NCBI RefSeq assembly: GCF_011493005.1
Contig: NZ_CP049158.1
Location: forward strand, 1,612,001-1,676,000
Length of the DNA stretch: 64,000 nucleotides
Direction: 5' to 3'
Origin: Caballeronia sp. SBC1
GTDB lineage: Bacteria > Pseudomonadota > Gammaproteobacteria > Burkholderiales > Burkholderiaceae
The notes under the pieces were generated by a model that saw only the letters and a list, made by a program, of their open reading frames with translations, was not told the origin of the DNA and made no database searches. Made by a program: the position numbers and the translations under genes. Shown here one piece after another: positions 36,033 to 55,747 of the stretch. The stretch's first letter is position 1; every line of letters starts with the position of its first letter.

Positions 36033-36407
36033 TCAGGAAACGCGTACGCTTTGCGCGTTCATTTTTTCGACAGTGAGATTGACCGATCGCGAGGTCAAAG
36101 GGCTGGTGCGATGCCTGACCCCGGCCGGAACCGTCAACATCTCGCCCGGTTTCAACTCGTATCGCGCCGTTTCCAGCTCGACAAGCAAGACGCCCTCGAG
36201 AACGATGAACACTTCGTCCGAGTCAGGATGGAAATGCCAGAAAAATGGCGAATCCATCACACTAAGGTGAACCGCGTGATCGTTCACCGTCGCCAGGATC
36301 TGATTGCAATATCCCGCTTTAGTCTGCTCTGCCACTGAGCTTAGGTTGACCAATTCAGGGTCCAAGATCGTCCCCTCCGGATGCATGCGGTGAAACGTGC
36401 GAGCCAC
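36033..36407 (-). CDS. Cupin domain protein
   Basis: 124 aa single-domain cupin. Metal-site motif 1 is FWHFHPDSDEVFIVLEG (His, His, Glu) and motif 2 is PGEMLTVPAGVRHRTS (His). Small cupins serve as isomerases, dioxygenases or ligand sensors. The start is uncertain: GTG at 36407 or ATG at 36386, neither with a clear ribosome site. It lies about 290 bases downstream of a DAO-type oxidase on the same strand and may belong to that catabolic region. Confidence 0.78.
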   Translation of the reverse strand: MARTFHRMHPEGTILDPELVNLSSVAEQTKAGYCNQILATVNDHAVHLSVMDSPFFWHFHPDSDEVFIVLEGVLLVELETARYELKPGEMLTVPAGVRHRTSPLTSRSVNLTVEKMNAQSVRVS

Positions 36408-36694
36408 CGCTAAGGACTGCGCACACTAGCGGGGTAAGCCGCTAGTCACAAGCCTAACCATCCGGAACCATCGAGCAAAGCGAATAATTTTCGCCACGAG
36501 GCGAGGCAAATTCACAAGCGGTCAACGCCTCGGTCCCAACCGGAATCAAGAGACGAAGGGATGAAGACATTCCCTTCCATGAGCCGACGCGCCGTCCGCT
36601 CATGATCGCCTTGGTGACGACCCACGTACTGTCGCGCGCGTTCGCATCACACGCATGCCATGCAGGCACGATTCAACCAGGTCAACAAAAACCG

Positions 36695-37975
36695 TCAGAA
36701 CAAAATATCCTGCAGCCGATAGTACGCACCAACCAAAGGCAACGTCCACGTGCGGCCGGCATGCCCGGGCACAGGAGGCCAGGGCAGCGAACGCCACGGG
36801 TTGGCCTGCTCGGACCCTGACAAGATCACGTCGGCCATCATGCGTCCCATATGCGTTGACATCTGCACGCCGTGGCCGCTGTATCCCATCGAATAGTAGA
36901 GCCCTTCGTGCTGTCCCGCACGAGGAAGCCGGTCCACGGTGATGTCAATAAGGCCACCCCAGCAGTAGTCGATCCGCGTGTTGGCAAGCTCCGGAAAGTA
37001 CTTCGCAAGTCCCTTGCGCAGCACGTTGCCGCTCTTTTCATCGGACTGAGGATTGGACATCGCAAAACGCGCGCGGCCGCCCCACAGCAACCGGTTATCG
37101 GGCGTCACCCGAAAATAATTGCCGATGTTAAGCGACGTTACATAGCTGCGCCTGTGAGGGAAAAACGCGTCGAGTTGCTGCGTGGAAAGCGGCTCCGTCA
37201 CCACGATAAAACTGCCCACTGGCGCCATGCGCTGCTGGAACCACTGCAACGGCCCCACGCGCGACGCACCCGTGGCCACCAGCACCCGGTCCGCCCTGAT
37301 GACGCCACGCGCCGAGGTGAGCTCGTAGCGCTCGCCGTCGATGTGTTTCAGTTGCGTCACCGCAGCGTCCTCGAAGATACGCGCGCCGTGCCGTGTAGCA
37401 GCCTGCGCCAGCCCGACGCCGAACTTCCCCATGTGCATCTGCACGCCGTTGCGCTGCAACAGGCCGCCATGAAAACCATCCGAGCCGATCTCGCTGCGCA
37501 TGCGATCAGCCGGAATCAACTCGACGTCCGGATCGACTTCGCGACGCAACACCTCGTAGGTGCGCGCCAGTTTTTCGAAGTGCCTGGGCTTGGCCGCCAG
37601 CTTGAGCTTCCCCGTGCGGACAAGGTCGCAATCGATCTGATGACGAGAGACGATTGACTCCACGCTCGCCACCGCACTTTCATACGCGCGATAAAACCCC
37701 CGGGCCTGCTCCAGTCCGACTCTCGCGGCAAGCGAAGCGAAGTCCTGCGCGACGCCGGTGTTGCACTGGCCGCCATTGCGCCCCGACGCCTCGCTCGCTA
37801 TGCGCCCTGCTTCGAGCACGGTGACCGACACACCACGCGTAGCGAGTTCGAGCGCAGCCGACAAACCCGTGAATCCGCCACCGATCACGACCACATCGGC
37901 GCGGCCTTCCACGGGACCCTGTGCACCTTCGCTGAATACGGGAGCGGTATCCAGCCAATACGAATCAAGCTTCAT
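36695..37975 (-). CDS. FAD-dependent amine/amino acid oxidase (DAO, PuuB-like), copy 1
   Basis: 426 aa. Oxidises a C-N bond, as in gamma-glutamylputrescine, sarcosine or D-amino acids. FAD Rossmann motif VVVIGGGFTGLSAALELATRG at about residues 29-49, then ASGRNGGQCNTG, and the C-terminal GYSGHGVQMSTHMGR loop. No signal peptide. The N-terminal SYWLDTAP is typical of PuuB-like enzymes. A paralogue lies at 47975-49309. It is preceded by the Tat-dependent binding protein (100-base gap). The substrate is not known. Confidence 0.88.
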   Translation of the reverse strand: MKLDSYWLDTAPVFSEGAQGPVEGRADVVVIGGGFTGLSAALELATRGVSVTVLEAGRIASEASGRNGGQCNTGVAQDFASLAARVGLEQARGFYRAYESAVASVESIVSRHQIDCDLVRTGKLKLAAKPRHFEKLARTYEVLRREVDPDVELIPADRMRSEIGSDGFHGGLLQRNGVQMHMGKFGVGLAQAATRHGARIFEDAAVTQLKHIDGERYELTSARGVIRADRVLVATGASRVGPLQWFQQRMAPVGSFIVVTEPLSTQQLDAFFPHRRSYVTSLNIGNYFRVTPDNRLLWGGRARFAMSNPQSDEKSGNVLRKGLAKYFPELANTRIDYCWGGLIDITVDRLPRAGQHEGLYYSMGYSGHGVQMSTHMGRMMADVILSGSEQANPWRSLPWPPVPGHAGRTWTLPLVGAYYRLQDILF

Positions 37976-38075
37976 TGATTTTTCAATTGAATGTGGCGCA
38001 GCAAGTGTGCTTCTGAGTCATGATGCTTCGCGCGCCACAACAGCCGCTTGGCGCTGCTTCAGTGGCGCGCCTGGG

Positions 38076-39650
38076 TCAGGCAGTCCACCAGACATGTTCG
38101 GCAAACGAGAAGCCCATCATGCCACCAGTCGGGATCGAGCCCAGCCCTTTCAAGCGCTTGTCATTGGCGTCGAGCAGGCTGATGAATGACGGGATACCAA
38201 TGCCGCCCTGATCCGCCACCAGCACCTGCATCTCGCCATACATCGCCTTGCGCTTGGCTTCGTCGGTCTCGGCCCGTGCGCTCAGCAGCAACTGGTCGAA
38301 GCGAGGATCCTTCCAACCCGACTCGTTCCAGGGCGCATCAGACTTGAAGAACTGCGTGAACAATACGTCCGCGCTGGGACGAGGGTTGATGCTGCCGAAA
38401 CCGAGCGGATGTTTCATCCAGTGATTCGACCAATACCCGTCGCCGGGAACCCGGTTCACGACGAGGTTCACACCAATCTTCGCTGCCGTCTGCTGCATCA
38501 GCTCCGCCATTTCGATAGAACCGTTCGCGTCGGTCGTGGCGTAGATCGGCGGCAAGGCCGGGCCCACCGCGCCGGCCTTCTGCATGTAGAACTTGGCCTT
38601 GTCGAGATCGAACTTGCGCTGCGGCAACGAAGCGTTGAAGTAGCGGTGACCGGGAGGAATCGGCTGGTCATTGCCGGTCACTGCGTAACCCCGGAACACG
38701 GCCGTGCGGATCTGCTCGCGGTCAAACAGGTTCTTCATGCCCATCACAAAGTTGGGGTTGCCCGTGAGCGTATTGTCACGACGCATGATCAGGTCGGTGT
38801 AAAGACCGGATTTGGTTTCCTTGACCGCATAACCAGGCGTCGACGCAATGCGCTGCGTCGAGCGCGGATCGACGGAGTTGATCAGATGCACGTCGCCTGC
38901 GAGTAGCGCATTCACGCGTGCCGCGTTGTCGCTGATGCTCACCAGTTCGATCTGATCCAGGTACGGTTGTCCTGCCTTCCAATAGTTGTCATTGCGCACG
39001 CCGATTGTGCTGACGCCCGGCTTGAAACTCTTGACCTTGTACGGTCCGGTCCCAATCGCCGAGCTGAAGTTCGTCGTGCCGTCCTTGATGATCACGAATT
39101 GCGGCGTAGCAAGAATCACCGGCAGATCGGCGTTCGGCACATCGAGCGTCATGGTCACTTCGTTCGGGCCGCTCGCCTTGATTTCGGCGAACTGGTCGGC
39201 GAGGGTCTTCACCTTCGATGCCGTCTGCGGATTCTTGTGACGCATCAGTGAATAGACCACATCGGCAGGCGCGAGCGGCTTGCCGTCGTGGAAAGTCACA
39301 CCGTTGCGCAACTTGATGATCCACGTTTTCGCGTCGGAACTTGATACGGACTCCGCTATATTCATTTGCGGCGTCAGGCTCTCGTCGAGCTGCGTCAGGC
39401 CGCTATAAAACATGAAGAAGCGGATGTAGTCGCTACCCGTCGAACCGACGGCGGGGTCGAGGGTGTCCGAGACCGAACCCGCGTCGTACGCCACCCGGAT
39501 ACTGCCGCCTTTCTTGGGGGTATCGGCGGCAAGCGCAGACGCCGATACCGACAGCAGGCCGCCGCCGGTGAGCGCCATCATGCCGGTTCCGGCCAACACG
39601 CGCATCATGTCGCGACGGCTTACGCCAGCGCTTTTTGTATCATCTTTCAC
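38076..39650 (-). CDS. ABC transporter substrate-binding protein, family 5, Tat-exported
   Basis: 524 aa. Twin-arginine signal VSRRDMMRVLAG followed by a hydrophobic core (MMALTGGGLLSVSASALA) and a cleavage site before ADTPKKGG. SBP_bac_5 fold: AESVSSSDAKTWIIKLRNGVTFHDGKPL is the family signature region. Periplasmic receptor for peptides or other amines. No permease or ATPase of the Dpp type lies nearby, so it must work with a distant channel or be an orphan. It lies between the hydantoinase B gene and a DAO-type oxidase on the same strand. Confidence 0.9.
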   Translation of the reverse strand: MKDDTKSAGVSRRDMMRVLAGTGMMALTGGGLLSVSASALAADTPKKGGSIRVAYDAGSVSDTLDPAVGSTGSDYIRFFMFYSGLTQLDESLTPQMNIAESVSSSDAKTWIIKLRNGVTFHDGKPLAPADVVYSLMRHKNPQTASKVKTLADQFAEIKASGPNEVTMTLDVPNADLPVILATPQFVIIKDGTTNFSSAIGTGPYKVKSFKPGVSTIGVRNDNYWKAGQPYLDQIELVSISDNAARVNALLAGDVHLINSVDPRSTQRIASTPGYAVKETKSGLYTDLIMRRDNTLTGNPNFVMGMKNLFDREQIRTAVFRGYAVTGNDQPIPPGHRYFNASLPQRKFDLDKAKFYMQKAGAVGPALPPIYATTDANGSIEMAELMQQTAAKIGVNLVVNRVPGDGYWSNHWMKHPLGFGSINPRPSADVLFTQFFKSDAPWNESGWKDPRFDQLLLSARAETDEAKRKAMYGEMQVLVADQGGIGIPSFISLLDANDKRLKGLGSIPTGGMMGFSFAEHVWWTA

Positions 39651-39872
39651 TTGGTTTGACTCCGGACGGGTAAAGGATCTGAAAGAACGTTCGGGAAGCG
39701 GCGAGGGCTAGCCTTATCGCGTCCCTTCTGAAGGATCGTATGCCTGCAGAATTCGCGCGAAACGCCGACAAAAACCGCGAAACAGCATAAATCGCTTGTT
39801 ATCGCATCGCTAACGCGGTGCTTTGCATGGCCGTCAAGCAGGCGTCGAAAATATCCGCGTTTTCCCCATGTT

Positions 39873-41888
39873 TCAGGTAACTGCTGCCTGCTCGACGTCG
39901 AGCAATTGCGGGTATCGCCGCAGCACGTCGGCATACAGTTCGTCGATAATTCCGGCACCGGCCGTCAGCGTGCCGGCCGCTTCCCTCGCGTCGAGTGCAT
40001 CGAAGATCTTGTGCTTGAGGAAATGACGCCACACCACCGGCGCGCGAGCGAGGATGCCCGTCAACACGTCGTAGCGTTCGCGCGTCCACTTCGCCTCATA
40101 GGCGTTGCGCTCCGCGCCATAGTCGAAGTGGGTGACTGCAGTCTGGTCCGATATCCTCTTCGCCTCTTCGCGCAGTTGCACCGTCTTCACGGCGTCGATC
40201 ACCCCATCGACCAGCACGACGCCATACAACTCACGTGCCTGATCGACGCGAAGGTAACCGCGCCGCACGTCCTCGGCCACTTTCTGCGCGTCGCGCTCGT
40301 AAGGATGGCCGTAGCCGCCACCGCCGCAGCCTTCGAGGCGGATGACATCGCCGGGACCGCACATCACGAGGTCGGTCACGCCCAGGTCCTCCTCGTCCTC
40401 GCGGCCCGGATTGCGGGTAAAGCGCGAGACGGCGCCCGCCTTGCCCCCAAGCACGCCCCAGGAAGCGAAGCGCGAGCGGTCGCGATTACGCGCGGTCACC
40501 AGCGTGCCCGGCGAAAACACCCTGAACTCCATCACGGTTCCCAGCCCGCCTCGGTACTTGCCCGCGCCTGCGCTACCCGGCACGACGCCATACTTCGTGA
40601 TGCGGATCGGCACTTCGGCTTCGTTGATCTCGACCGGCGTATTGCGCAGGAACGCCACGTTCGCGCCGGACGCATCCGAGCCGTCGCCCGATATCATTCC
40701 GCCCGCACCACCGCCCACCGGACCGATGGAAGCGATCACCGCACGACCCCGGCGGTCCACGGTCTTGACGTTAAGGATCGACATGCCGCCGGCCGGACAC
40801 GCCGGCAGACGTTCCGGGCACACCATCGAGAACGCACCGAAGGTCACATACTGCGCGACCTTCGCGGTCAGGCTGCGCATTCCCACCGCCGCGGGCGGAA
40901 CGCAATTCATGATCGTGCCTTCAGGCATGATGCAGCGCGCCACTTTCAGCATGCCTGCGTTAAGCAGAAGATCGGGATTAAGCGAGTACAAGACATAGTT
41001 GAGACCCACGAGCGCGAGGACATGGCGCTCCTTGCCGCCCGTGGGCATGTTCAACGACGAATTCAGTTGAGGATCGCTGCCGGTGAAATCGAATATGAGC
41101 GAACCGTCCTTTACCGTCAGTGTCAGAGCAACACGCAGCGGTTTGCCGTTGACCGAGTCCTCGTCGGCATATTCAGCGAAGAAATATTCGCCGTCTGGCA
41201 TGCTCCTTACAATCGTGCGCGCCTGCTCTTCCGAGTACTCAAGCAGCGCATCCATTCCGGCGCGAAATTGCGCCAGCCCGAAGCGCTCGATGATCTCCAG
41301 CACGCGGCGCTCGCCGGTCATCAGCATCGCAATCTGCGCCTTCAGGTCGCCGCGATTCTGCTCGGGCGCGCGCACGTTGATCGCCATGTGTTCTAGCAGG
41401 ACTTCATCCAGCACGCCCGCGCGAACAATCTTGGTCGGCGCGAAGCGGATGCCTTCCTGGTAGATCTCGGTCAGCGTGCGCGACAGCGAAGCGGGCACCG
41501 CGCCGCCCATGTCCGTGTTGTGGATATGCCCACCGACATAGCAGACAATCTCTCCGTTGAAGAATACCGGCTTCCACATCATCACATCGGGCGTGTGGGT
41601 CGCTACGTAGCCGCTGTACGCGTCGTTGGTCATGCAGATATCGCCCGGTTCGTAGTGGTCGATCATGTCGATCACAGCACCGAAGTCGAGACCCGGATAC
41701 CACGTCGCGCCCAGCGTCTTCGGCGAGGCGAACGTGAGGCCGCGGGTGTTCATCAGCGTGCAGGAGAAGTCTTCGGTTTCCTTCACGAAAGCGGAATGCG
41801 CGGTGCGCACGAGCGTATAGGCCATGCTTTCCGCAGCCGCGACGCAGTAGTTCGCGAAAATCTGCAGGACGGATTTATCGAATGTCAT
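39873..41888 (-). CDS. hyuB: Hydantoinase/oxoprolinase family, B subunit
   Basis: 671 aa. Partner of the ATP-dependent A subunit in opening lactams, hydantoins or 5-oxoproline. Family landmarks: AHSAFVKETEDFSC near the N-terminus, DICMTNDAYSGYVATHTPDVM, GHIHNTDMGG, and GCGGGGYGHPYERD near residue 520. Longer than many B subunits: the last roughly 120 residues (from about 550) are an extra helical tail. Starts 23 bases after the A subunit stop. Acetone carboxylase-type chemistry is an alternative, but the third subunit is missing. Confidence 0.88.
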   Translation of the reverse strand: MTFDKSVLQIFANYCVAAAESMAYTLVRTAHSAFVKETEDFSCTLMNTRGLTFASPKTLGATWYPGLDFGAVIDMIDHYEPGDICMTNDAYSGYVATHTPDVMMWKPVFFNGEIVCYVGGHIHNTDMGGAVPASLSRTLTEIYQEGIRFAPTKIVRAGVLDEVLLEHMAINVRAPEQNRGDLKAQIAMLMTGERRVLEIIERFGLAQFRAGMDALLEYSEEQARTIVRSMPDGEYFFAEYADEDSVNGKPLRVALTLTVKDGSLIFDFTGSDPQLNSSLNMPTGGKERHVLALVGLNYVLYSLNPDLLLNAGMLKVARCIMPEGTIMNCVPPAAVGMRSLTAKVAQYVTFGAFSMVCPERLPACPAGGMSILNVKTVDRRGRAVIASIGPVGGGAGGMISGDGSDASGANVAFLRNTPVEINEAEVPIRITKYGVVPGSAGAGKYRGGLGTVMEFRVFSPGTLVTARNRDRSRFASWGVLGGKAGAVSRFTRNPGREDEEDLGVTDLVMCGPGDVIRLEGCGGGGYGHPYERDAQKVAEDVRRGYLRVDQARELYGVVLVDGVIDAVKTVQLREEAKRISDQTAVTHFDYGAERNAYEAKWTRERYDVLTGILARAPVVWRHFLKHKIFDALDAREAAGTLTAGAGIIDELYADVLRRYPQLLDVEQAAVT

Positions 41889-41911
41889 GTTGTGTTTCCA
41901 AAGTCAGCTAT

Positions 41912-43951
41912 TCAAACGGCTTCGAGAAAAAGATTGCCGTAGTCGTCTACGCGGGCGTTGAAACCCGGCAGCACGCAGGTGGTGGTGTCGTCCTGGGCGA
42001 CGATCGCGGGACCAGGGAATCGATGCCCCCCAAGCAGCGCCGTGCGCCGGTAGAGCGGAACGCGACGCCACGCGCCGTCGAGGTAGGCATCGATTTCAGA
42101 CTCAATCTTTGGGGTGCCTTCGCCCGCCGCTATCTTTGGCAACTCGGGCTTGGGCGTGTGCGCGGTGATGACGAGCCTGAGCGCGACTACTTGAATTGCG
42201 GACTTTTCGTCGCTATGACCAAAAAGGCGCTCATGCTCCCGATGAAACGCTTGCGCAATCCCTTCAATGTCACCGGCGGCAATAGCGTCGGCGGTCAGCG
42301 GCGTATCGATCTCAAACGATTGCCCGCGATAGCGCATATCGGCCGAGACCACGAGTTCGGCCGTTGCGTCTGTGCCCGTCTCGCGGATCACCCATGCGCG
42401 TGCATCGGCTTCCAGCAGCGCGAGGTCGTGGCCAAGCCGTTCGAGGGACGCACGGTCGAGCGGATAATACGTCGTGCGAACGAAATCGTTCTTGGTGTCC
42501 GCAATCAAACCGCCGAGCGCGCTGAGCACACCAGGGGTAGTCGGAACCAGCAGGTTCCGCACATTCAGCGCGCGGGCAAGGAAGCAGCCGAGCATCGGCC
42601 CTGCGCCGCCGAAAGGCATCAGCGAGAAGGTGCGCGGGTCAATGCCGAAGCGCGAGCTCAAGCGGCTCACGCCTGCATACATGCCGGAGATCGATACCTC
42701 AATGATCGCTGCTGCAGTCTTGTAGACGTCGAGTCCCAGTCGTTGCGCAAGCGGTTCGATCGCACGCAACGACGCATCGACATCCACCTTTACCGCGTTA
42801 TAGCCGAGCGCTGCGCTGCCGAGCACGCCGATCGCGGCGAATGCGTCGGTGATAGTCGGGCGCGTGCCGCCGCGACCGTAGCAAACCGGGCCCGGATTCG
42901 ACCCCGCGCTTTCCGGTCCGACCTTGAGCACGCCGAACTCGTCGACCCAGGCGATCGAGCCCCCGCCGTCACCAATCGACGAGACCGAGACCGACGGAAT
43001 ATGGATCTGGAATTCGCCGATATATTCGCCCGTCGCGTACTGCGGCTTGCCATCCACGATCAACGCAATATCAGCCGTCGTCCCGCCGATGTCGAGACTC
43101 ATGCAGTCCTTCACCTGGCAGAGCTTCGCGAGATACGCCGCGCCGATCACGCCGGACGCGGTGCCGGAGAGGATCATCTGCACGCAGTTCTGCTTGCCGT
43201 TCTCGGCACTCATCACGCCGCCGTTGGACTTGGTGACCTTCAGGTCCGCACCAATACCGCTTTCCGCCAGCGCCGCCTGCAATTTCGTGAGGTAATTCGA
43301 CACGCGCGGTTGCACATAACCACCAATGGTCGCCGTGACGGTGCGTTCGTACTCGCGGATAATTGGCCAGACTTCATGCGAGCATGAGACGAACATACCC
43401 GGCATTTCCCCCTGGATGATTGCCTTCACCTGCTGCTCGTGCGACGGATTGCGATACGAATGCAGCAGTGACACCACCACGCCCTCGCAGCCTGCCGCCT
43501 GCATGGCGTGCACGGCGTCGAGCACGCTGGCCTCATCGACGGCGGTTTCCTCCTCACCCTCCGCCGTCAGCCGTCCCACCACGCCAAATACCCGGTCGCG
43601 TGGAATCAGCGGCGCAGGACGGCTCGACATCAGGTGGTACATGTCGGGAATCTTCAGGCGCGCAATGTCCAGCACGTCCTCGAAGTTGCGCGTGGTGACA
43701 AGTCCGAGCTTCAGCCCCTTGCGTTGCACTACCGCGTTTACGCCGACGGTCGTGCCGTGCGTGAAATAAACCACGTCGCGCGGCTCGATACCGTAGCGCT
43801 CCCGCAGACCGTCCATTCCCGCAAGCACTTCGCTGCCGGGGCTGTCCGGCCTCGAAAATACCTTCAAGGTCCGTATTGTTCGCGTCGCTTCGTCGAGCAC
43901 TGCGAAGTCAGTGAACGATCCGCCAATATCCACTCCGATTCTCAAACCCAT
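41912..43951 (-). CDS. hyuA: Hydantoinase/oxoprolinase family, A subunit (ATP-binding)
   Basis: 679 aa from ATG 43951 (AAGGA upstream); a longer upstream frame was rejected. Actin-like ATPase fold: phosphate loop VDIGGSFTDFAV at about residue 6, FTHGTTVGVNAV, SLDIGGTTADIAL (second phosphate loop) and FGGAGPMLGCF. The usual C-terminal domain opens with DMRYRGQSFE. With HyuB it hydrolyses a cyclic amide at the cost of ATP. The caprolactamase CapAB and N-methylhydantoinase are family examples. It lies downstream of the PotABCD-type importer, probably on the same transcript. Confidence 0.9.
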   Translation of the reverse strand: MGLRIGVDIGGSFTDFAVLDEATRTIRTLKVFSRPDSPGSEVLAGMDGLRERYGIEPRDVVYFTHGTTVGVNAVVQRKGLKLGLVTTRNFEDVLDIARLKIPDMYHLMSSRPAPLIPRDRVFGVVGRLTAEGEEETAVDEASVLDAVHAMQAAGCEGVVVSLLHSYRNPSHEQQVKAIIQGEMPGMFVSCSHEVWPIIREYERTVTATIGGYVQPRVSNYLTKLQAALAESGIGADLKVTKSNGGVMSAENGKQNCVQMILSGTASGVIGAAYLAKLCQVKDCMSLDIGGTTADIALIVDGKPQYATGEYIGEFQIHIPSVSVSSIGDGGGSIAWVDEFGVLKVGPESAGSNPGPVCYGRGGTRPTITDAFAAIGVLGSAALGYNAVKVDVDASLRAIEPLAQRLGLDVYKTAAAIIEVSISGMYAGVSRLSSRFGIDPRTFSLMPFGGAGPMLGCFLARALNVRNLLVPTTPGVLSALGGLIADTKNDFVRTTYYPLDRASLERLGHDLALLEADARAWVIRETGTDATAELVVSADMRYRGQSFEIDTPLTADAIAAGDIEGIAQAFHREHERLFGHSDEKSAIQVVALRLVITAHTPKPELPKIAAGEGTPKIESEIDAYLDGAWRRVPLYRRTALLGGHRFPGPAIVAQDDTTTCVLPGFNARVDDYGNLFLEAV

Positions 43952-44030
43952 TGCGTTGTCCTTGCCTGTCGAAAATGATGAAACGTCTGGACGCGCGGGC
44001 AGTCTTGACAGCCTCGCGTCGCGGGGCCTG

Positions 44031-45062: not shown

Positions 45063-45098
45063 GCGTGCCTCGTGGCAATCAAATCAGTGAAGGGGAAG

Positions 45099-45905
45099 TC
45101 ATGCATTGAGTGCACGCAGTCCGTAGGTGCGCTCGACCAACAGCAGTAAGCCGATCGCAATCAGCATCTGCACGGTGCTGATTGCAGCTATGGCCGGGTC
45201 GAGCTGGTTCTGCAGGTACGACAGCATCACGACCGGCAGCGTGGTTACGTTCGCCGTCCCGAAGAAGTACGAGACCGGCAGGTTGTCGAGCGAGATCAGC
45301 ACCGCGAACAGCGCGCCTGCGAATACACCCGGGCTGATGAGCGGCAGCGTTACGAAATAGAAGCGCTGCAAACGGTTCGCACCGAGCACCGCAGCCGCTT
45401 CCTCGAAGTTGATGCCGACGTTGCGATAGACCGCAAGCACCGTACGCATCACATACGGCACGGAGATCACCGTGTGAGCGATCAGGAGCGCAACGAAGGA
45501 CACGCCAATGCCCAGGCTCGACAGAAAATAGAGCAAAGAGAAACCGATCACGAGGGCGGGAATCGCTACCGGCGCAAGCAGGAAGGTCGTTAGGGCCGCA
45601 GCGGCGGCGCTGCGGCTGCGGCCTAGCGCGATGGCAGCGGGGACAGCCAGCAGGATCGCGACGAATGCCGAACTGAGCGCGAGATAAACGCTCGTCATCA
45701 GCGAGTCAATGAACGGGCGATATTCAATCAGCCGCCGATACCAGCGCAACGACACCCCGTGATAAGGCACGGTGATCGCATTGCCCGCCGTGAACGACGC
45801 GGCCACGACCACGACGATCGGCGCAATGAGAAACGTGAAGAACAAGAGGTTATAGAGCGACAACGGCACGCGCGCAACGCCCGTCCTGCGCAGCAGCGCG
45901 ATCAT
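45099..45905 (-). CDS. ABC transporter permease, PotC type
   Basis: 268 aa, six membrane helices. The EAA loop is FEEAAAVLGANRLQRFYFVTLPLISPG. Its start codon overlaps the stop of the PotB-type permease by four bases (ATGA), so the two are translationally coupled. Second inner membrane channel subunit of the polyamine/opine-type importer. Confidence 0.93.
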   Translation of the reverse strand: MIALLRRTGVARVPLSLYNLLFFTFLIAPIVVVVAASFTAGNAITVPYHGVSLRWYRRLIEYRPFIDSLMTSVYLALSSAFVAILLAVPAAIALGRSRSAAAAALTTFLLAPVAIPALVIGFSLLYFLSSLGIGVSFVALLIAHTVISVPYVMRTVLAVYRNVGINFEEAAAVLGANRLQRFYFVTLPLISPGVFAGALFAVLISLDNLPVSYFFGTANVTTLPVVMLSYLQNQLDPAIAAISTVQMLIAIGLLLLVERTYGLRALNA

Positions 45906-46786
45906 GGCCGCACTCCCCGGCCGCTAGCGAACCGCTGCTGCAGGAAGAGGCAAACCAGCACGATGAAAAGCAGCAGGTTGCCCATTGCCGCGGCGAAGCC
46001 GATGTCCTGCGTCAGGCTGAACTGCTGGAAGATCAGCACGGGCAGCGTCACGACCTGGCCACCGCCGAGCAGCAGCATGGTCACGAAACTGCCATTGGTC
46101 AGCATGAACACGAGAATGCACCCGGTCACAATGCCTTCAATGCTCAACGGCAGCGTCACGTTGAGAAAGGTCCGTATCGCGCCGGCGCCAAGAATACGCG
46201 CAGATTCTTCGAGCCGCCGGTCGACACCTTGCAATACGGGCGTAATCGACAGCACCATGAACGGCACCATCACATGGACCAGCCCCATATACACCGAGCC
46301 CGCGCTGTTCAGCACGTTCAACGGCCGGTCGATCAGATGCAGCGCTTGCAAGGCTTCATTGACCATGCCGTGACGTGCAAACAGGATGCGCCAGCCGAAG
46401 GTGCGCATGATGATTGACGTCAGCAGCGGCGCGACGAGCAGAAACAGCAGCACCGGACCGAAGCGGCCCGCGCGCCGCACAAGAAAGTAGGCCACGGGGT
46501 AACCGACGACCGCACAGATCGCCGTGGTGACGAAGCTGACCTTCAGCGTGTTGAAGATTACACCCAGATAATAAGGATCGCTGATCAGCTTCGTATAAAA
46601 ACGAAAGCTTAAAACTGCCCCCTCACGGGAGGGCGCCACGCTGCGCAGTATGTTTTCAAGCAGCGGCGCGAGGAAAAACACACACAGGAAGATCACCGCG
46701 GGCAGGTAAAGCAGGCTCGGTCGCACACGCCGCTTCGTGACCTTCGTCTCAATCCGCTGAGTTGGGATGGCATCGAAAGTCTGCAT
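45902..46786 (-). CDS. ABC transporter permease, PotB type
   Basis: 294 aa, six membrane helices. EAA loop: LEESARILGAGAIRTFLNVTLPLSIEG. The N-terminal TKRRVRPSLLYLPAVIFLCVFFLAPLLENI is typical of PotB-like permeases. Its ATG directly abuts the ATPase stop (TAA-ATG), and its end overlaps the PotC-type gene by four bases. Confidence 0.93.
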   Translation of the reverse strand: MQTFDAIPTQRIETKVTKRRVRPSLLYLPAVIFLCVFFLAPLLENILRSVAPSREGAVLSFRFYTKLISDPYYLGVIFNTLKVSFVTTAICAVVGYPVAYFLVRRAGRFGPVLLFLLVAPLLTSIIMRTFGWRILFARHGMVNEALQALHLIDRPLNVLNSAGSVYMGLVHVMVPFMVLSITPVLQGVDRRLEESARILGAGAIRTFLNVTLPLSIEGIVTGCILVFMLTNGSFVTMLLLGGGQVVTLPVLIFQQFSLTQDIGFAAAMGNLLLFIVLVCLFLQQRFASGRGVRP

Positions 46787-47947
46787 TTACGCCGCCTTTG
46801 CCAGAGCGGGACCGCCATCGGTTTCCAGCAGCACGGCGCTTTCGGCGTCGAAGGAAACAACCACTTGCGCGCCTGCGGGACGCGCACCGCCGCCCGAGGA
46901 CGACGTCGCCATCTCATAGGCATAAACTGGCCGGCCGAGTGCCGCGACATCGACCCGGTAGGCGTGGTGGGCACCGCGAAACACATGCTGCACGATACGC
47001 CCGTCGAAGCGGACATGATGCGATTGCGGCGCGTCGAGCACGACCTTCTCGGGGCGGATTGCAAACTCGGCCTGATCGCCGGAGAGCCTGACATCGCGTA
47101 GCGGGACCACGACGTCCGCGCGGCTCCGGTGCGGCCGAAGCTTCACGGCCTGCGCATGTCGCGCGATCACATCGCACTCGATCACGTTTGCCGTGCCAAG
47201 AAACTCCGCTACGAAACGCGTGCGCGGCTGTTCGTAGACATCACGGGGACTGCCGGTCTGCAAGATCCGCCCGCGATCCATCACAACCACGCGGTCGCTC
47301 ATGGTCAGCGCTTCCTCCTGATCGTGCGTCACCATCACGCTTGTAATGCCCAGCTCGCTCTGTATCTGGCGAAGCTCGAACTGCATGCCTTCGCGCAAGT
47401 TCTTGTCGAGCGCGCCAAGCGGTTCGTCGAGAAGCAGCACAGACGGATTGGTGATCAAGGCACGTGCCAAGGCAATGCGCTGCTGCTGGCCGCCCGAGAG
47501 TTGCGCGATGTTGCGCGCCTCGATGCCAGGCAGTCGGATCGTCTCGAGCATCTTTTTCACGCGTGCGGCGATCTCGCTTTTCGGCGTGCCCGCCATGCGC
47601 AGTCCGAAGCCGATATTCGCGCCTACGCTCAAATGCGGAAACAGGCTGTAGTTCTGGAACACCATACCCAGGCCGCGTTTGTCCGGCGGCAGGCCCGTGA
47701 CATCGCGACCGCCAATACTCACGGTCCCGGTATCAGGTTGATCGAATCCGGCAATCAGTCTGAGCGTGGTGGTCTTGCCGCAACCCGAGGGTCCGAGCAG
47801 CGCAAGGAGCTCGCCCGGATGCACATCGAGTGTCATCGTCTCGAGCGCGGTGACCGCACCAAAACGCTTGCTGACGCCATCAAGAAGCAGACGCTGCGAG
47901 CGCTCGGCGCCGCTCGGCGAAGATGTTGCGACTGCTGTTGCCATCAT
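46787..47947 (-). CDS. ABC transporter ATP-binding protein, PotA type
   Basis: 386 aa. Walker A GPSGCGKT at about residues 53-60, Q-loop VFQNYSLFPHL, signature LSGGQQQRIALARAL, Walker B VLLLDEPLGALD and the H-loop in VTHDQEEAL. A C-terminal TOBE-like regulatory domain (about 285-375) is present. Energises the PotB/C-type permeases. It starts 27 bases after the flavin oxidase stop. A second ATG one codon in is equally possible as the start. Confidence 0.93.
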   Translation of the reverse strand: MMATAVATSSPSGAERSQRLLLDGVSKRFGAVTALETMTLDVHPGELLALLGPSGCGKTTTLRLIAGFDQPDTGTVSIGGRDVTGLPPDKRGLGMVFQNYSLFPHLSVGANIGFGLRMAGTPKSEIAARVKKMLETIRLPGIEARNIAQLSGGQQQRIALARALITNPSVLLLDEPLGALDKNLREGMQFELRQIQSELGITSVMVTHDQEEALTMSDRVVVMDRGRILQTGSPRDVYEQPRTRFVAEFLGTANVIECDVIARHAQAVKLRPHRSRADVVVPLRDVRLSGDQAEFAIRPEKVVLDAPQSHHVRFDGRIVQHVFRGAHHAYRVDVAALGRPVYAYEMATSSSGGGARPAGAQVVVSFDAESAVLLETDGGPALAKAA

Positions 47948-47974
47948 GGAGGGTCCCGGTTAAGAGCGTGCCGC

Positions 47975-49309
47975 TCAGGCGTGCTGCCTGCGTTTGTCGA
48001 TGACGTCGCGGATCTGGTAATAGCTCCCCAGCGCCGGCATGAACCACGGCTTGCCGCGATAAAGCGCGTGCGTGAGCATCGGCGTGCCATAGGCGCTGCT
48101 CTCGGGCGCTTGCCCTTCGAGAATCAGGCGTGCGACCTTGTAGCCGAGGTAGGTCATCATCACCACGCCGCTGCCGTTGCAACCGAGCGCGTAGTGGATA
48201 CCGTCGGCGGTGCGGCCCAGATGCGGCAGGAAGTCGAGTGTGAGCGCCACGGTGCCGCCCCAGCTATAAGCGACCTTTACGTCGGCCATCTGCGGGAAGC
48301 GCTCAACCATTTGCGCGTGCAGGATCGCACCCGACTGGCGCCGGTCGAGGTTATAGAAACGCGCGCGGCCGCCAAACAGGAAACGCTTGCCGTCGGGTGA
48401 ATAGCGGTAGTAATTGACCACGCGGCGCGTCTCCGAAATACCGCGGCGCTTCGGTATCAGCGACGCCTGCAGGTCGGCAGGAAGCTCCTCAGTGGCGATC
48501 TGATGCGACACGACCGGCACCACGCGGCGTTTCAGGTCCGGCACCGATTCGCCCGTATAACCGTTGGTGCAAATCACCACGTGCCGGCTCGCCAGCGTTC
48601 CCCGCGCGGTCTCTATGCGATACCCCGCCCCTGAGCGCGTAACGCTCTTCACCGGGGCCTTGCTGCACACCGTGACACCCGCGCCGCGAGCAGCAGCGAG
48701 CAGCCCGGCAAACATCATCGACGGGTGCACTTGTCCCGCGCGCTCGAGCAATACGCCGCCCGCGTAAATGTCACTCGCCAGTTCGCTGCGCAGTTCGTCG
48801 CGCGAGAGGATCCGTGCACCCGCCGACGCGTACGCGTTGAGGTTCACGATGCGCTTCTTCCACGCAGCCAGGTGCGCGTCGGTCCACATCGCGTTGATGC
48901 GGCCAGCCTTCAAATAAGCGCATTCGATTGCGTTGTCCCTGAGGATGCTTTCGAACACGCCGTAGGAAGCCGCGGCTTCGCGCAGGAGCGCTTGCTGGCG
49001 TTGTTCCGATACGGCGTTGTCCAGCTTCTTGCCTGAGGGCGCCTTGCCTACGTTCACGCCTCCCGACACTTGTCCGCCACTAAGCGTGCTCGCACCGATG
49101 CCGGGCACATCGGCTTCGAGAACGGCCACGCTCAAGCCGTGCTTCGCGAATTCGAGCGCGCACGACAACCCCGCGTAACCCGCGCCGACGATCGCCACGT
49201 CAACTTCGCGCGGCACTTCGGACATCAGGTCGTCGTGCGGACGCCAGTCTTTCCACCAGTACGGGGTGTCGGTGAAATCGGAGGAAAACACTTGGCTGCG
49301 CGTCGACAC
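47975..49309 (-). CDS. FAD-dependent amine/amino acid oxidase (DAO, PuuB-like), copy 2
   Basis: 444 aa from GTG 49309, chosen because AAGGA lies seven bases upstream; the frame extends 30 codons further but that part overlaps the operator block. FAD motif VAIVGAGYAGLSCALEFAKHG, then GASTLSGGQVSGGVNVG and the C-terminal GCNGSGVVMMTYLG loop. Paralogous to the oxidase at 36695. First gene of the PotABCD-HyuAB series, with an operator-like block 30 bases upstream, so probably the first catabolic step or the step after ring opening. Confidence 0.88.
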   Translation of the reverse strand: MSTRSQVFSSDFTDTPYWWKDWRPHDDLMSEVPREVDVAIVGAGYAGLSCALEFAKHGLSVAVLEADVPGIGASTLSGGQVSGGVNVGKAPSGKKLDNAVSEQRQQALLREAAASYGVFESILRDNAIECAYLKAGRINAMWTDAHLAAWKKRIVNLNAYASAGARILSRDELRSELASDIYAGGVLLERAGQVHPSMMFAGLLAAARGAGVTVCSKAPVKSVTRSGAGYRIETARGTLASRHVVICTNGYTGESVPDLKRRVVPVVSHQIATEELPADLQASLIPKRRGISETRRVVNYYRYSPDGKRFLFGGRARFYNLDRRQSGAILHAQMVERFPQMADVKVAYSWGGTVALTLDFLPHLGRTADGIHYALGCNGSGVVMMTYLGYKVARLILEGQAPESSAYGTPMLTHALYRGKPWFMPALGSYYQIRDVIDKRRQHA

Positions 49310-49338
49310 GGTGAGGTCCTTAATGGGTCTGCATTTCT

Positions 49339-49396
49339 CCGTGCCACATTGCGGCACGGCATTCCATAAACTCGTTGAGGTGCAAAGTATCACGCG
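49339..49396. promoter_or_regulatory. Operator block A, probable IclR site
   Basis: Contains the inverted repeat CCGTGCC-N7-GGCACGG (49339-49359), then TTCCATA and GCAAAGTATCACGCG. The same elements in the same order occur at 51918-51972 before the aldo-keto reductase gene. It lies 30 bases upstream of the flavin oxidase start. Probably bound by the IclR protein encoded at 52053. Confidence 0.7.
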
Positions 49397-49572
49397 CATT
49401 TATCGCGTGCAAGCGTTCAGAAAAACGGGGTGGGAGCGTCGTGCTTTATGCGGCGGGCGATCGGAAAACCAGCACGAAGCGCCGCCATCGCGACGATCGA
49501 CGGCGGTGAATGATAGGACTACGACACACTAAAAACCGATGGTTTCAGGGTGTGGTTCCGGGCAGTGACGCA

Positions 49573-51000
49573 TCAGCCGGACAAGGGCAAATCCTCGCTC
49601 GCCGCATGCAGCGCCTGCCGCGTAATGCCAATAATTTCGTCGATATCCGCTCGCGTGGCGACCAGCGGCGGCGCAAATCCGATGATGTCGTTAATGCCAA
49701 GCGGACGAACAATCAGGCCACGCGCAAGCGCTGCCTGCGCGACCCGGCTGCTGACCTTGAGAGAAGGCACAAACGGTGTGCGTTCGGTCTTGCCGGCCAT
49801 TAGCTCAAGAGCCGCCAGCATCCCCTCGCCTCGTACATTACCGACGAGCGGGTGATCATCGAATGCGGCGTGCATACTTTGCTGCATATAAGCGCCGACG
49901 TCGGCGGCATTGCGCGTCAGTTGCTCGCGCTCGAGGATGTCGAGGTTCGTCAACGCCGCAGCCGCGCACACCGGATGGCCCGAGTAAGTCCAACCGTGGC
50001 TCATTGCGCCTTGCTCGCGCGAGCCGCGTTCGATCACGTCCCACACCCGCTCGCCGACAATCACGCCGGACAGCGGCAAGTACCCGCTCGTGAGGCCCTT
50101 CGCGACCGAGATCAGATCCGGTTCGATACCGTAATGTTCGGAGCCGTTGCGCGAGCCGAGGCGCCCGAAACCGCACACGACTTCATCGGCGACGAACAAG
50201 ATGTCGTGCCGCTTCAGCACGGCCTGGATGGCTGGCCAGTAGCCGGCCGGCGGCGGCAGGATGCCGCCCGAGCCCATGACCGGTTCGCCAAAAAATGCAG
50301 CGATAGTGTCCGCCCCTTCGCTTTCTATCAACTGTTCAAGCTGTTCGACGCAATCCGCCACGAACGCACTTTCGCTGTCGCCTGGCCGGGCGTCGCGATA
50401 GAAGTCAGGACACGCCGTGTGCAGCACCTGCGGCATGGGCAAGTCAAAAGCCGTGTGAAACTTCGCTTGTCCCGTGAGGCTGCCGGTTGCAATACCCGAA
50501 CCGTGATAACTGCGATGCCTCGCGATGATCTTCTTCTTGCGCGAACGCCCGAGCACATTGTTGTAATACCAGACCAGCTTGATCTGTGTCTCGTTGGCGT
50601 CCGAGCCGGACATGCCATAGAACACCTTCTTCATTCCCGGTGGCGACCAGTCCTCGATCAGCCGTTGCGACAGTTCGACGGCGGGGTCGTTCGAGAAGCC
50701 TGCATACGTGTGATAGAACGACAGCTTGCGGCTCTGGGCTGCAATCGCCTCGGCCATCTCCTCGCGTCCATAGCCGATGTTCACGCAATACAGCCCGGCG
50801 AATGCATCAATGTAGGAACGGCCCGCGTGATCCTCCATGCGTATGCCCGACGCACGCCTCATCAGGCGCCCTTCCAGCTCGCCGGACGCATGGTCGGACG
50901 CATGCGTTCCGGGATGCATGAAGTGGCGCCGGTCTGTTGCCAAGATTGCTTCGCTATACGAATCAGTTACTGAGTTCATGATTGTGTCGATGGGGTTCAT
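49573..51000 (-). CDS. Class III aminotransferase (omega-amino acid:pyruvate type)
   Basis: 475 aa. PLP enzyme transferring a terminal or beta/gamma amino group to pyruvate or 2-oxoglutarate. Seen: GMSGSDANETQIKLVWYYNN, FVADEVVCGFGRLG (Asp to the pyridine N) and SVAKGLTSGYLPLSGVIV (Schiff-base Lys). ATG 51000 overlaps the aldo-keto reductase stop by four bases (ATGA), showing coupling; the longer frame starts inside that gene and was rejected. Family members act on beta-alanine, putrescine, 4-aminobutyrate or 6-aminohexanoate. Confidence 0.92.
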   Translation of the reverse strand: MNPIDTIMNSVTDSYSEAILATDRRHFMHPGTHASDHASGELEGRLMRRASGIRMEDHAGRSYIDAFAGLYCVNIGYGREEMAEAIAAQSRKLSFYHTYAGFSNDPAVELSQRLIEDWSPPGMKKVFYGMSGSDANETQIKLVWYYNNVLGRSRKKKIIARHRSYHGSGIATGSLTGQAKFHTAFDLPMPQVLHTACPDFYRDARPGDSESAFVADCVEQLEQLIESEGADTIAAFFGEPVMGSGGILPPPAGYWPAIQAVLKRHDILFVADEVVCGFGRLGSRNGSEHYGIEPDLISVAKGLTSGYLPLSGVIVGERVWDVIERGSREQGAMSHGWTYSGHPVCAAAALTNLDILEREQLTRNAADVGAYMQQSMHAAFDDHPLVGNVRGEGMLAALELMAGKTERTPFVPSLKVSSRVAQAALARGLIVRPLGINDIIGFAPPLVATRADIDEIIGITRQALHAASEDLPLSG

Positions 51001-51881
51001 GGCTGCATTGCGCATAAGGAGGTGTCCGCGATGTCCCATGCGGGATGCCACGCCGGCTTGCTCACGCGGCCATCGGCACGGGCGAGCAAGCGGATGCGCG
51101 CCATCGACGCGGCATCGAGTTCGAAATCGAATACCGCGAGGTTTTCCCCTATGCGCACCTGATTCGACGACTTCGGAATGGCCGCGACCCCGGGCTGCTG
51201 GATCAACCAGCGCAAGATGATCTGCGCGGGTTGCTTGTCATGCCGACGAGCAATGTCCGCGATCACCGGGTCCGCAAGCAGCTTGCCGCTGCCAAGCGGT
51301 GAGTGCGAGATCAGGGCCATGCCGTGTCGCGAACAGGCAGCGAGCAGCTTGGTCTGATCGAGATACGGATGGTATTCGCACTGGTTCGCGACCAGCGGCA
51401 ACGGCGAGAGCGCCACTGCACGATCGAGCAGCGCCACCGGAAAATTCGATACGCCGATATGACGCGTCAGGCCGCGGCGTTGTGCGTCGTTGAGCGCGCC
51501 GATTGTCTCTTCAAGCGGTACCTCGGGGTTGGGCCAGTGCACGAGCAGCAGGTCGACGTGATCGAGCCCCAGCCGCGCGACGCTCGCTTCTGCCGCGCGG
51601 CGGAAGTCGGCTGCGCGCAATTCGGTATGCCAGACTTTGGTGGTGACAAACACGTCGTTGCGCGGCACGCCGCACGCGGCGAGCGCCTGGCCGACCGCCT
51701 GCTCGTTCTCGTAGCGGGCAGCGGTGTCGATATGCCGGTACCCGGCGTCGAGGGCGGCCCGCACGGCACGGACACCTTCATCGTGGGTGGATTGCCACGT
51801 GCCCAGCCCCAGCCGGGGAATCAGGGCGCCGTTGGCGGCAACTACCTGCAAAGACGCAGGCGCATGAAGAGGAAATGTCAT
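50997..51881 (-). CDS. Aldo-keto reductase, 2,5-diketo-gluconate reductase type
   Basis: 294 aa NADPH-dependent TIM barrel. Catalytic Asp and Tyr in GYRHIDTAARYENEQAVGQAL, Lys in VFVTTKVW and His in LLVHWPNP; the cofactor region is AIPKSSNQVRIGENL. It is the first gene of a two-gene operon with the aminotransferase (four-base overlap), so it probably reduces the aldehyde made by transamination or a related carbonyl. The operator block lies about 37 bases before the start. The ribosome site is weak. Confidence 0.9.
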   Translation of the reverse strand: MTFPLHAPASLQVVAANGALIPRLGLGTWQSTHDEGVRAVRAALDAGYRHIDTAARYENEQAVGQALAACGVPRNDVFVTTKVWHTELRAADFRRAAEASVARLGLDHVDLLLVHWPNPEVPLEETIGALNDAQRRGLTRHIGVSNFPVALLDRAVALSPLPLVANQCEYHPYLDQTKLLAACSRHGMALISHSPLGSGKLLADPVIADIARRHDKQPAQIILRWLIQQPGVAAIPKSSNQVRIGENLAVFDFELDAASMARIRLLARADGRVSKPAWHPAWDIADTSLCAMQP

Positions 51882-51917
51882 CGCGAGAGTGTTTTCGGGA
51901 TTCCGAGATTTTTGTTA

Positions 51918-51972
51918 CCGTGCCATAATACGGCACGCCGTTCCATATTTTTACGATGCAAAGTAACACGCG
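51918..51972. promoter_or_regulatory. Operator block B, probable IclR site
   Basis: Inverted repeat CGTGCC-N7-GGCACG (51919-51937), then TTCCATA at the same distance as in block A, and GCAAAGTAACACGCG displaced by three bases. It lies in the divergent gap between the aldo-keto reductase and IclR genes, so it could control both. The match to 49339-49396 is direct. Confidence 0.7.
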
Positions 51973-52052
51973 ATTTTTCGCGACGCAAGGGAACAACAGC
52001 GTGCCGGGATGAGCGCGCTTGTCGCGCGGCCGCAAATCACTGGAGGGGGTGC

Positions 52053-52784
52053 ATGAACAGTTTGTTGAAGAGCCTGGAGATCCTGGAAGCGGTATCGCAG
52101 AACCAGCCAGTCAGCGTGGGTGTGCTGGCGCGTTTGCTGGACATGCCGAAATCCAGCGTCCAGCGCGTGCTGATGACCTTTCTCGAAGCCGGCTGGCTGC
52201 GCCAGACCGGCGGCGACCTGACGCGCTGGGAAGTGGGCGCGCGGATCCTCGGCGTGCGCCCTGCCGCGCTTCGCGGCGGCGCGCTGTATGCCGCCGCACG
52301 CGAGCCGATGCGCGAGCTACGGGAGCTCACCAACGAGACCGTCCACCTGTCGATCCCGGACAGCACCAAGTCAATGGTGCTCATCGATCGTGCGGATTGC
52401 ACGCAGACGGTCCGAACCTTCAGTCCTATTGGCGACCTCAGCCCGTTCCACGCGACGGCAACGGGCCTCGCCGTACTCGCGTACATGAGCGAGGCCGAGG
52501 TGGAAGAAATCCTGGGTCGCGACCTGCCAAAATTCAGCGACACCACGCCGTGCGACCCCGCCGAGATACGACTCGAACTCGAGCGCATCCGCAAGCGCGG
52601 ATATTCGATCAACCTGTCGCAGTATCGACGCGCGGTGTGCGCTATTGGTGCAGCAATCATCGATTCGGATGGTGCGCCGGTCGGCAGCATCTGCATCTCC
52701 ATGCCCGAATCCCGCTACGAGCCCAAACGTCTCGATGAGTGGGGAAAAGCTGTTGCGAAGGCGGCGGCGGCTATCAGCGTTTAG
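52053..52784 (+). CDS. IclR family transcriptional regulator
   Basis: 243 aa from ATG 52053, which has GGAGGGGG seven bases upstream; the frame is open for 250 codons before this, overlapping the aldo-keto reductase gene, and that part is not coding here. Winged helix at about residues 3-60 (LARLLDMPKSSVQRVLMTFLEAGWL) and the IclR effector domain (about 75-240, with SPFHATATGLAVLAYM and INLSQYRRAVCAIGAAI). Divergent from the aldo-keto reductase/aminotransferase operon and probably its regulator, as well as of the flavin oxidase-importer operon. Confidence 0.93.
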   Translation: MNSLLKSLEILEAVSQNQPVSVGVLARLLDMPKSSVQRVLMTFLEAGWLRQTGGDLTRWEVGARILGVRPAALRGGALYAAAREPMRELRELTNETVHLSIPDSTKSMVLIDRADCTQTVRTFSPIGDLSPFHATATGLAVLAYMSEAEVEEILGRDLPKFSDTTPCDPAEIRLELERIRKRGYSINLSQYRRAVCAIGAAIIDSDGAPVGSICISMPESRYEPKRLDEWGKAVAKAAAAISV

Positions 52785-53569: not shown

Positions 53570-53661
53570 GCCTCGGGCCTTGAAGGCGAATCACTTCAGC
53601 GGCCATCGCAGCTGTGCTAGATTGCAGCCCAAAGACCTGTAACCCGCGACCAAAAATTAAA

Positions 53662-55721: not shown

Positions 55722-55747
55722 GCAGATCTTCAACGCGCGCTGACCAA

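Follow-up and report, generated by a model that had tools for sequence, protein, structure and literature searches.

Which compound is the hydantoinase-like enzyme pair HyuAB of Caballeronia sp. SBC1 made to consume, and which of the genes around it belong to the same task? The question is raised by a gene cluster at positions 36033..52784 of a 64,000-nucleotide stretch of its DNA (NZ_CP049158.1, positions 1,612,001 to 1,676,000; hereafter the window), which is part of contig 3 of a genome of 8.85 Mb. To our knowledge, few substrates have been assigned to the ATP-dependent amide hydrolases of the HyuAB family. The original prediction for this DNA, made without database searches, proposed the import, ring opening, deamination and reduction of one cyclic or N-substituted amine. 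The cluster is a real, conserved and accessory catabolic regulon, composed of known enzyme families and a newly recognised putative operator. More specifically, it probably serves the use of an amino-acid-like cyclic amide under a divergently encoded IclR-family regulator that would act through the predicted palindrome GTGCC-N7-GGCAC, a reading drawn from sequence comparison to which we give a probability of about 60%. The features concerned are the following.

About 52053..52784, plus strand: IclR-family regulator, 243 aa (PF01614 125.7 bits, PF09339 40.1 bits)
51918..51946, minus strand: predicted operator 1, ATGGAACGGCGTGCCGTATTATGGCACGG, between the IclR and aldo/keto reductase genes
50997..51881, minus strand: aldo/keto reductase (AKR), DkgB-like, 294 aa (PF00248 218.7 bits)
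49573..51000, minus strand: class III omega-aminotransferase, TA3 (PF00202 279.8 bits; NF005684/PRK07482 737.4)
49339..49367, minus strand: predicted operator 2, ATGGAATGCCGTGCCGCAATGTGGCACGG, between the TA3 and DAO2 genes
47975..49309, minus strand: DAO2, DAO-family FAD-dependent oxidase (PF01266 200 bits)
46787..47947, minus strand: ATPase of an ATP-binding cassette (ABC) importer (PF00005/PF08402; TIGR01187 potA 360.2)
45902..46786, minus strand: ABC permease B (PF00528)
45099..45905, minus strand: ABC permease C (PF00528)
44031..45062, minus strand: ABC binding protein, SBP6 (PF13343/PF13416)
41912..43951, minus strand: HyuA, ATP-binding subunit, 679 aa (PF05378, PF01968, PF19278)
39873..41888, minus strand: HyuB, 671 aa (PF02538 472.7 bits)
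38076..39650, minus strand: SBP5, family-5 (Dpp/Nik-type) binding protein (PF00496 238.4 bits)
36695..37975, minus strand: DAO1, DAO-family FAD-dependent oxidase (PF01266 247.4 bits)
36033..36407, minus strand: small cupin (PF07883)

The sequence itself gave corrected starts for four genes (IclR, ATG 52053; TA3, ATG 51000; DAO2, GTG 49309; HyuA, ATG 43951). Read from right to left, the minus strand carries AKR, TA3, DAO2, the ATPase, two permeases, SBP6, HyuA, HyuB, SBP5 and DAO1, with the IclR gene diverging on the plus strand. AKR and TA3 overlap in an ATGA, the ATPase and the next permease gene are 0 nt apart, the two permease genes overlap by 4 nt, and 23 nt separate HyuA from HyuB. The gene families and the tight spacing described in the original prediction are therefore confirmed, by Pfam and NCBIfam matches and by the sequence itself; its list passed over SBP5 (PF00496, 238 bits), which lies between HyuB and DAO1. 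Consensus promoters and terminators in the window show no excess over shuffled sequences.

This is not a chance grouping, to judge from the genomes compared: the set IclR/AKR/TA3/DAO2/HyuA/HyuB/SBP5/DAO1 recurs at 79–99% identity in 12 other fetched Caballeronia and Paraburkholderia loci (L034–L037, L039–L044, L048 and L061). The window HyuA shares 97% identity with the Caballeronia udeis protein and 100% with the one encoded on plasmid pSBC2-2 of Caballeronia sp. SBC2. L085, left out of the count, represents the same or a sister strain and adds no independent evidence, because its HyuA and locus are 100% identical. In total, 59 loci of the same HyuA clade were compared, some of them cut by contig ends: 14 form group a (Caballeronia and Paraburkholderia, many of them close kin; 15 sequences with the window), seven form group b, in which the genes are rearranged, and 38 fall outside both.

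The evidence for a common regulator lies in the intergenic regions. Two near-identical 29-bp sites, both of the palindromic form given above, stand one upstream of the AKR–TA3 operon and one upstream of the DAO2 operon, the corrected DAO2 start being downstream of operator 2. The 29-bp consensus matches the window twice, against no match in 100 shuffles, and the 17-bp core, GTGCCGNNNTNTGGCAC, occurs in exactly two copies in the whole genome, both in this cluster. Only these exact copies stand out, because the core with at most one mismatch gives 18 genome matches, the same number as a backward control. A pattern built from the window's two sites alone was scanned over 76 sequences (the window and L034–L108; 1.65 Mb, some stretches overlapping), in which 0.002 matches were expected. 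It matches the window, every one of the 21 loci that have an IclR orthologue (45% identity or more) and also L038, where the contig starts beyond the IclR gene; the other 53 sequences gave no match, and none of them has an IclR orthologue where this was checked (L094–L100 lie outside that check).

The pattern-bearing sequences amount to about three independent lineages, many group-a loci being closely related: group a, with IclR proteins 88–100% identical to that of the window; group b, including Paraburkholderia, with 62–65%; and a Pantoea piersonii plasmid, with 48.6%. In group b the site stands before SBP6–HyuAB or HyuAB, and in Pantoea before a DAO2-like oxidase and HyuAB. When eight of the 15 group-a sequences are set against all seven loci of group b, identity is 99% in the core but 35% and 30% in the two 40-bp flanks; the selection of loci by the pattern itself inflates the core value, yet no IclR-bearing locus failed the pattern. 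Operator 2 is exact in the window and L085, L036, L038 and L039, and differs by one change in L034. Given that the IclR protein has both helix-turn-helix and effector domains, that its gene is divergent and that the palindrome lies in the shared intergenic region, the conserved site is very probably its operator. The proposal of a single regulon thus stands on firmer ground than when it was made, with the same predicted operator before both operons and beside IclR.

The chemistry of the regulon turns on HyuAB. Both subunits belong to the hydantoinase/oxoprolinase superfamily, with PF05378 and PF01968 in HyuA and PF02538 in HyuB above their cut-offs, the ATP motifs DIGGSFTD (8), DIGGT (287) and GSNPGP (350) in HyuA, and an Asp-His-Asp-His metal site (D40, H98, D101, H123) in HyuB. 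In caprolactamase, alanine changes at metal- and ATP-site residues leave at most traces of activity (PMC8453981). Caprolactamase Asp41, His99, Asp102 and His124 are all kept in the window proteins, as are, by motif, the two ATP-site aspartates; with both sites intact by residue comparison, HyuAB is probably of the ATP-dependent type, as originally proposed. The nearest solved chains are those of N-methylhydantoinase 7hk5 (HyuA 414 bits, HyuB 240 bits) and caprolactamase 6yra; unlike the separate HyuA and HyuB of the window, 7hk5 is one fused chain of 1288 residues.

The substrate pocket tells more about the ring. Caprolactamase Ile62 corresponds to Lys57 of the window HyuB. Of 61 clade HyuBs, 59 have Lys or Arg at this position and two have Met, compared with Ile, Ile, Gly and Asp in four outgroup HyuBs. 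Tyr136 is replaced by Leu135 and the vicinal Cys410–Cys411 by Val411–Ala412, with Ala365 and Leu415 retained; the hydrophobic pocket marked in CapAB by Ile62, Tyr136 and the vicinal cysteines is not found here. Because the Ile62 position is Lys or Arg in nearly all relatives, the remodelled pocket points to a charged, amino-acid-like ring bearing a carboxylate.

The same residues bear on the catabolism of simple or N-alkyl lactams, in which TA3 or a DAO would deaminate the omega-(alkyl)amino acid released from a caprolactam- or N-methylpyrrolidone (NMP)-like ring. Such a route has precedents in the pairing of HyuAB with an omega-aminotransferase for caprolactam (PMC6061476) and of the N-methylhydantoin amidohydrolase NmpAB with an amino-acid oxidase for NMP (PMC12866759). 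We consider it unlikely here: besides the replaced pocket residues, the subunits reach 483.7 and 224.0 bits against the CapA and CapB equivalogs (NF050156/NF050157; cut-off 1000 per subunit), which excludes CapAB itself, and the window contains no relative of succinate-semialdehyde dehydrogenase (SSADH) or other aldehyde dehydrogenase (ALDH) (tblastn, two ALDH queries, E 1e-5). The Pseudomonas jessenii caprolactam cluster, which encodes CapAB, an omega-aminotransferase and a 6-oxohexanoate dehydrogenase, shares with the window a nearby omega-aminotransferase and a hydrolase of HyuAB type in which the metal and ATP residues agree, whereas the window cluster has the changed pocket, no dehydrogenase, and FAD oxidases and a predicted IclR operator instead. 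The nmpABCDEF clusters of Alicycliphilus and Paracoccus likewise place a HyuAB-type hydrolase beside an amino-acid oxidase (NmpC), with the SSADH NmpF in the same cluster; they are set apart by gene content rather than by sequence, since the window lacks SSADH and adds ABC/SBP5 import, TA3 and AKR.

An opine-type lactam is possible, if rather doubtful. HyuAB would then open the lactam of an N-substituted amino acid to an opine, whose secondary amine an FAD oxidase would split. The opine regions described for Ti plasmids, pTiEU6 and rideopine regions among them, combine HyuAB with importers of Pot type and with FAD oxidases, and a lactam-opening step has been suggested for them by those who described them (PMC6733357, PMC8554961, PMC10410297). 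The likeness to the window extends to HyuAB with a Pot-type ABC importer in pTiS4 and pTiEU6, the latter compared by description only, and in pTiS4 also to a divergently encoded IclR protein, a binding protein of Dpp type and an FAD oxidase; pTiS4 encodes an SSADH as well. Furthermore, L081, L092 and L093, which are relatives of the window cluster, and a companion cluster elsewhere in the SBC1 genome carry the three-subunit iron–sulfur (FeS)/FAD oxidase of Ti type, and L041 shows two of its three subunits at 28–35%. Against this, the window HyuA is 36–37% identical to the two pTiS4 HyuAs and belongs to another clade, which rules out orthology, and HyuB position 57 is Ile rather than Lys or Arg in the one of the two pTiS4 HyuBs present in the residue table. 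A quick HyuA tree was built from 96 rows, 84 of them different, which had all been retrieved for their similarity to the window. The window sequence belongs to a clade of 70 rows (support 100) that includes neither of the two pTiS4 HyuAs; another HyuA of the same genome (L103) and most other same-genus HyuAs in the tree also fall outside this clade, where long branches are unreliable. The operator pattern was not found in the fetched pTiS4 stretches. One of these (NC_011982, 105000–135000, L104) resembles the window cluster in layout, with HyuAB of the different HyuA clade, two Pot-type importers, an N-formylglutamate amidohydrolase, MmgE/PrpD proteins, SSADH and a divergent IclR gene.

For uptake, the original description of a PotABCD-type importer holds at class level only. 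The ATPase lies just above the potA cut-off (360.2 against 355.6, TIGR01187); SBP6 belongs to PF13343/PF13416, and its four NCBIfam matches include no PotD model, the best being PhnS with 49.5 of 395.3 bits. The pairing of this importer with HyuAB is old, as it recurs in Bordetella, Paralcaligenes, Methylobacterium, Agrobacterium and other rhizobial loci. It is, however, not an obligatory part of the pathway, contrary to what was first supposed: it is present in four of the 14 group-a loci (L038, L039, L044, L085) and absent from ten, three of which keep remnants, namely the first bases of the ATPase gene in L034 and L036 and the last bases of SBP6 in L034 and L035. Since such gene ends persist and the gap junctions of L034–L037 are all different, the importer was deleted, perhaps repeatedly; no remnants were found in L037 or the six Paraburkholderia group-a loci. 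SBP5, in turn, is kept in 14 of 14 group-a loci, and its permease must be supplied from elsewhere. The companion cluster contains a Dpp permease set with an SBP5 paralogue (SBP5', 63% identical), and a Dpp-type permease relative (31%) lies apart from the cluster at 14775–15698 of the window.

The amine-removing enzymes are of two kinds. TA3 belongs to the PRK07482 subfamily (737.4 against a cut-off of 687 for NF005684), and its nearest structure in the PDB, 5kr5 (750 bits), is named 4-aminobutyrate transaminase, in agreement with the predicted omega-amino-acid type paired with a reductase. It may have arisen by duplication and recruitment of a widely occurring omega-aminotransferase, as the genome holds a 69% paralogue (G000:C2:1450793–1452139) and 27 of 37 same-genus genomes, this one counted, have a match at 66–70%. 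The AKR reaches 247.4 bits against DkgB, below the cut-off of 327, and contains what we take to be the catalytic tetrad motifs. It was initially suggested as a possible replacement for an ALDH. The absence of ALDH stands for the 64 kb of the window, while the genome holds at least two ALDH relatives in the companion cluster, on another replicon. In addition, ALDH or SSADH relatives lie near HyuAB in 21 of the 59 clade loci, none of them in group a, and several sister clusters pair the aminotransferase both with GhrA and with ALDH/SSADH. AKR is present in 13 of 13 group-a loci having a class III aminotransferase. Of the 38 loci that belong to neither group a nor group b, 15 have an aminotransferase, and each of these also has GhrA (the Pantoea and Enterobacter aminotransferases being only 27–31% identical to the queries). 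The two reductases never occur together in the 59 loci. One kind of reductase or the other accordingly accompanies the aminotransferase, AKR probably standing in the place of GhrA.

These data also bear on whether one pathway is present at all. An AKR–TA3 operon for 4-aminobutyrate or beta-alanine and a DAO2–HyuAB operon for another compound might share a regulator by mere proximity. The wide spread of TA3 relatives would suit such an arrangement, as would the Pantoea piersonii plasmid, where IclR, operator, DAO2-like oxidase and HyuAB occur with no TA3 or AKR within 12 kb. It nevertheless appears improbable, given that the same predicted operator precedes both operons and that L047, L072 and G036 have TA3 and AKR close to HyuAB although the genes are arranged differently there. 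The caprolactam-like aminotransferase logic of the original prediction is weakened: within 11 kb of HyuAB, FAD oxidases are somewhat more constant neighbours (37 of the 59 loci) than class III aminotransferases (30 of 59), so that a secondary-amine logic of NMP or opine type is at least an equally good fit. L-Pipecolate oxidase AmaA was excluded as the identity of either oxidase (NF050086, cut-off 600; DAO1 200.9, DAO2 158.6). DAO1 has a 63% paralogue at C2:180669.

In the regulon that we favour, IclR would bind the palindromic site and govern both operons. The substrate would be a lactam or hydantoin that bears a carboxylate and is substituted at N or C. SBP5 would bring it in together with a Dpp-type permease acting in trans, and some strains would also use the SBP6 importer. 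HyuAB would open the ring with ATP; DAO2, DAO1 or both would oxidise the exposed amine, or TA3 would transaminate it, and the carbonyl so formed would be reduced by AKR or oxidised by dehydrogenases encoded elsewhere, as in the companion cluster. Of the pathway first proposed, the regulon, the HyuAB sites and the aminotransferase with its reductase are retained, while simple lactams, an essential importer and the exchange of ALDH for AKR are not.

Several observations weigh against this reading. Ligand binding, ring opening, amine removal and reduction are steps deduced from gene content. The placement of Lys57 relies on homology where identity is low, no residue aligns with CapB Ile60, and Phe468 lies outside the comparison. 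The two oxidases match AmaA, glycine oxidase and sarcosine oxidase distantly only, which makes a secondary amine a guess, and neither an FAD oxidase nor a class III aminotransferase is an obligatory neighbour of HyuAB. No Dpp permease lies within 11 kb of SBP5 in any of the 14 group-a loci. In L035, L037, L044 and the six group-a loci from Paraburkholderia, no operator 2 was found, and DAO2 may be read from the AKR promoter there. In group b, the genes are split over several operons, with TA3 in two and AKR in three of the seven loci.

The companion cluster, at about 172300–194500 of replicon C2 (fetched as L101/L102, G000:C2:163000–200000), has no HyuAB. It encodes the three-subunit opine-oxidase-type FeS/FAD oxidase, the Dpp importer with SBP5', a DAO1 relative (DAO1', 63%), a HAD type II protein (HAD-II), ALDH, GNAT, GhrA, a PRK05965-type aminotransferase, a tartrate dehydrogenase (TIGR02089, 550.8 against 470.4) and an SSADH-like enzyme (629.5, below the SSADH cut-off of 646.35). 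In Paraburkholderia PREW-6R (L081) and G036 (L106–L108), HyuAB lies among genes of this type. The nearest solved chains of HAD-II bear the name (S)-2-haloacid dehalogenase, and one group of them also that of L-azetidine-2-carboxylate hydrolase (96.5–102.2 bits; next class 47). The latter hydrolase yields 2-hydroxy-4-aminobutyrate, a GABA (4-aminobutyrate)-like acid (PMC8016842). This acid would suit a class III aminotransferase, SSADH and a malate/tartrate dehydrogenase. Of 37 same-genus genomes, 23 encode HAD-II at 84–100% and two others at 71%; 16 of the 37 have it at 84–88% without a window-type HyuA. The companion cluster is not a requirement, as G008 has a window-type HyuA (96%) with only a 34% HAD-II match.

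From these genes, a more speculative and decidedly improbable proposal can be built, in which the window cluster is the lactam-opening arm of a widespread, hitherto undescribed proteobacterial pathway for plant metal chelators of the nicotianamine/deoxymugineate class, with their 2-aminobutyrate units, or for azetidine-2-carboxylate derivatives. The fuller versions would be those of C2, Paraburkholderia L081 and G036, Paracoccus and rhizobia. A Dpp/Nik-type importer would bring in the substrate, opine-type oxidases and DAO1 would cut secondary amines, and the azetidine-hydrolase-like HAD would yield 4-amino-2-hydroxybutyrate. Class III aminotransferase and SSADH would then give malate, and tartrate dehydrogenase, which we presume to have D-malate activity, would give pyruvate; HyuAB would open the gamma-lactams formed by such gamma-amino acids. 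The proposal depends on a chain of reasoning about the companion cluster, and in G008 the window cluster exists without that HAD. A literature search on nicotianamine or mugineate catabolism returned nothing on point. If true, it would describe a dedicated route in soil bacteria for consuming plant metal chelators.

Among open PMC papers, no described pathway with the window's gene set was found, and no N-carbamoyl hydrolase family was met among the cluster proteins scanned. The window brings together both kinds of amine-removing enzymes, an NMP-like oxidase and a caprolactam-like aminotransferase, under one putative operator. The proposed regulator–operator pair is directly testable and defines the gene set of a catabolic pathway without assignment. 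Moreover, Lys/Arg57 offers a marker residue for a HyuAB clade found here in bacteria of the alpha-, beta- and gammaproteobacteria, of which several live in association with plants. If one ring of this kind were identified, it would become easier to assign the many clusters that are annotated but unexplained.

Other neighbours do not belong to the core. The small cupin, probably not a core gene, is near the cluster in three of 47 loci (L034–L080), all Caballeronia, and the neighbouring GNAT, HAD (52895), TonB-like and methyl-accepting chemotaxis protein genes were rejected because they occur in Caballeronia loci only. Positions 52895–57205 of the window encode, besides a HAD-like hydrolase, a chemoreceptor and a protein in which the TonB C-terminal domain occurs twice; among the fetched loci, these are likewise seen in Caballeronia only.

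HyuA is apparently broken in symbiont genomes (L072, L076 and L014: Candidatus Burkholderia verschuerenii, a metagenome-assembled genome of a Paraburkholderia symbiont, and G015), as reduced genomes might lead one to expect. In the rhizobial loci L062, L063 and L078, two adjoining HyuAB pairs of the same clade flank an NADH:flavin oxidoreductase of the old yellow enzyme type, and L062 has a third, distant pair. Lastly, contig 4 of G036 (20000–80000; L106/L107/L108) gathers three HAD-II/DAO1 modules, two SBP5 genes, HyuAB and TA3–AKR within about 40 kb, a crowding that suggests an amplification of this chemistry.

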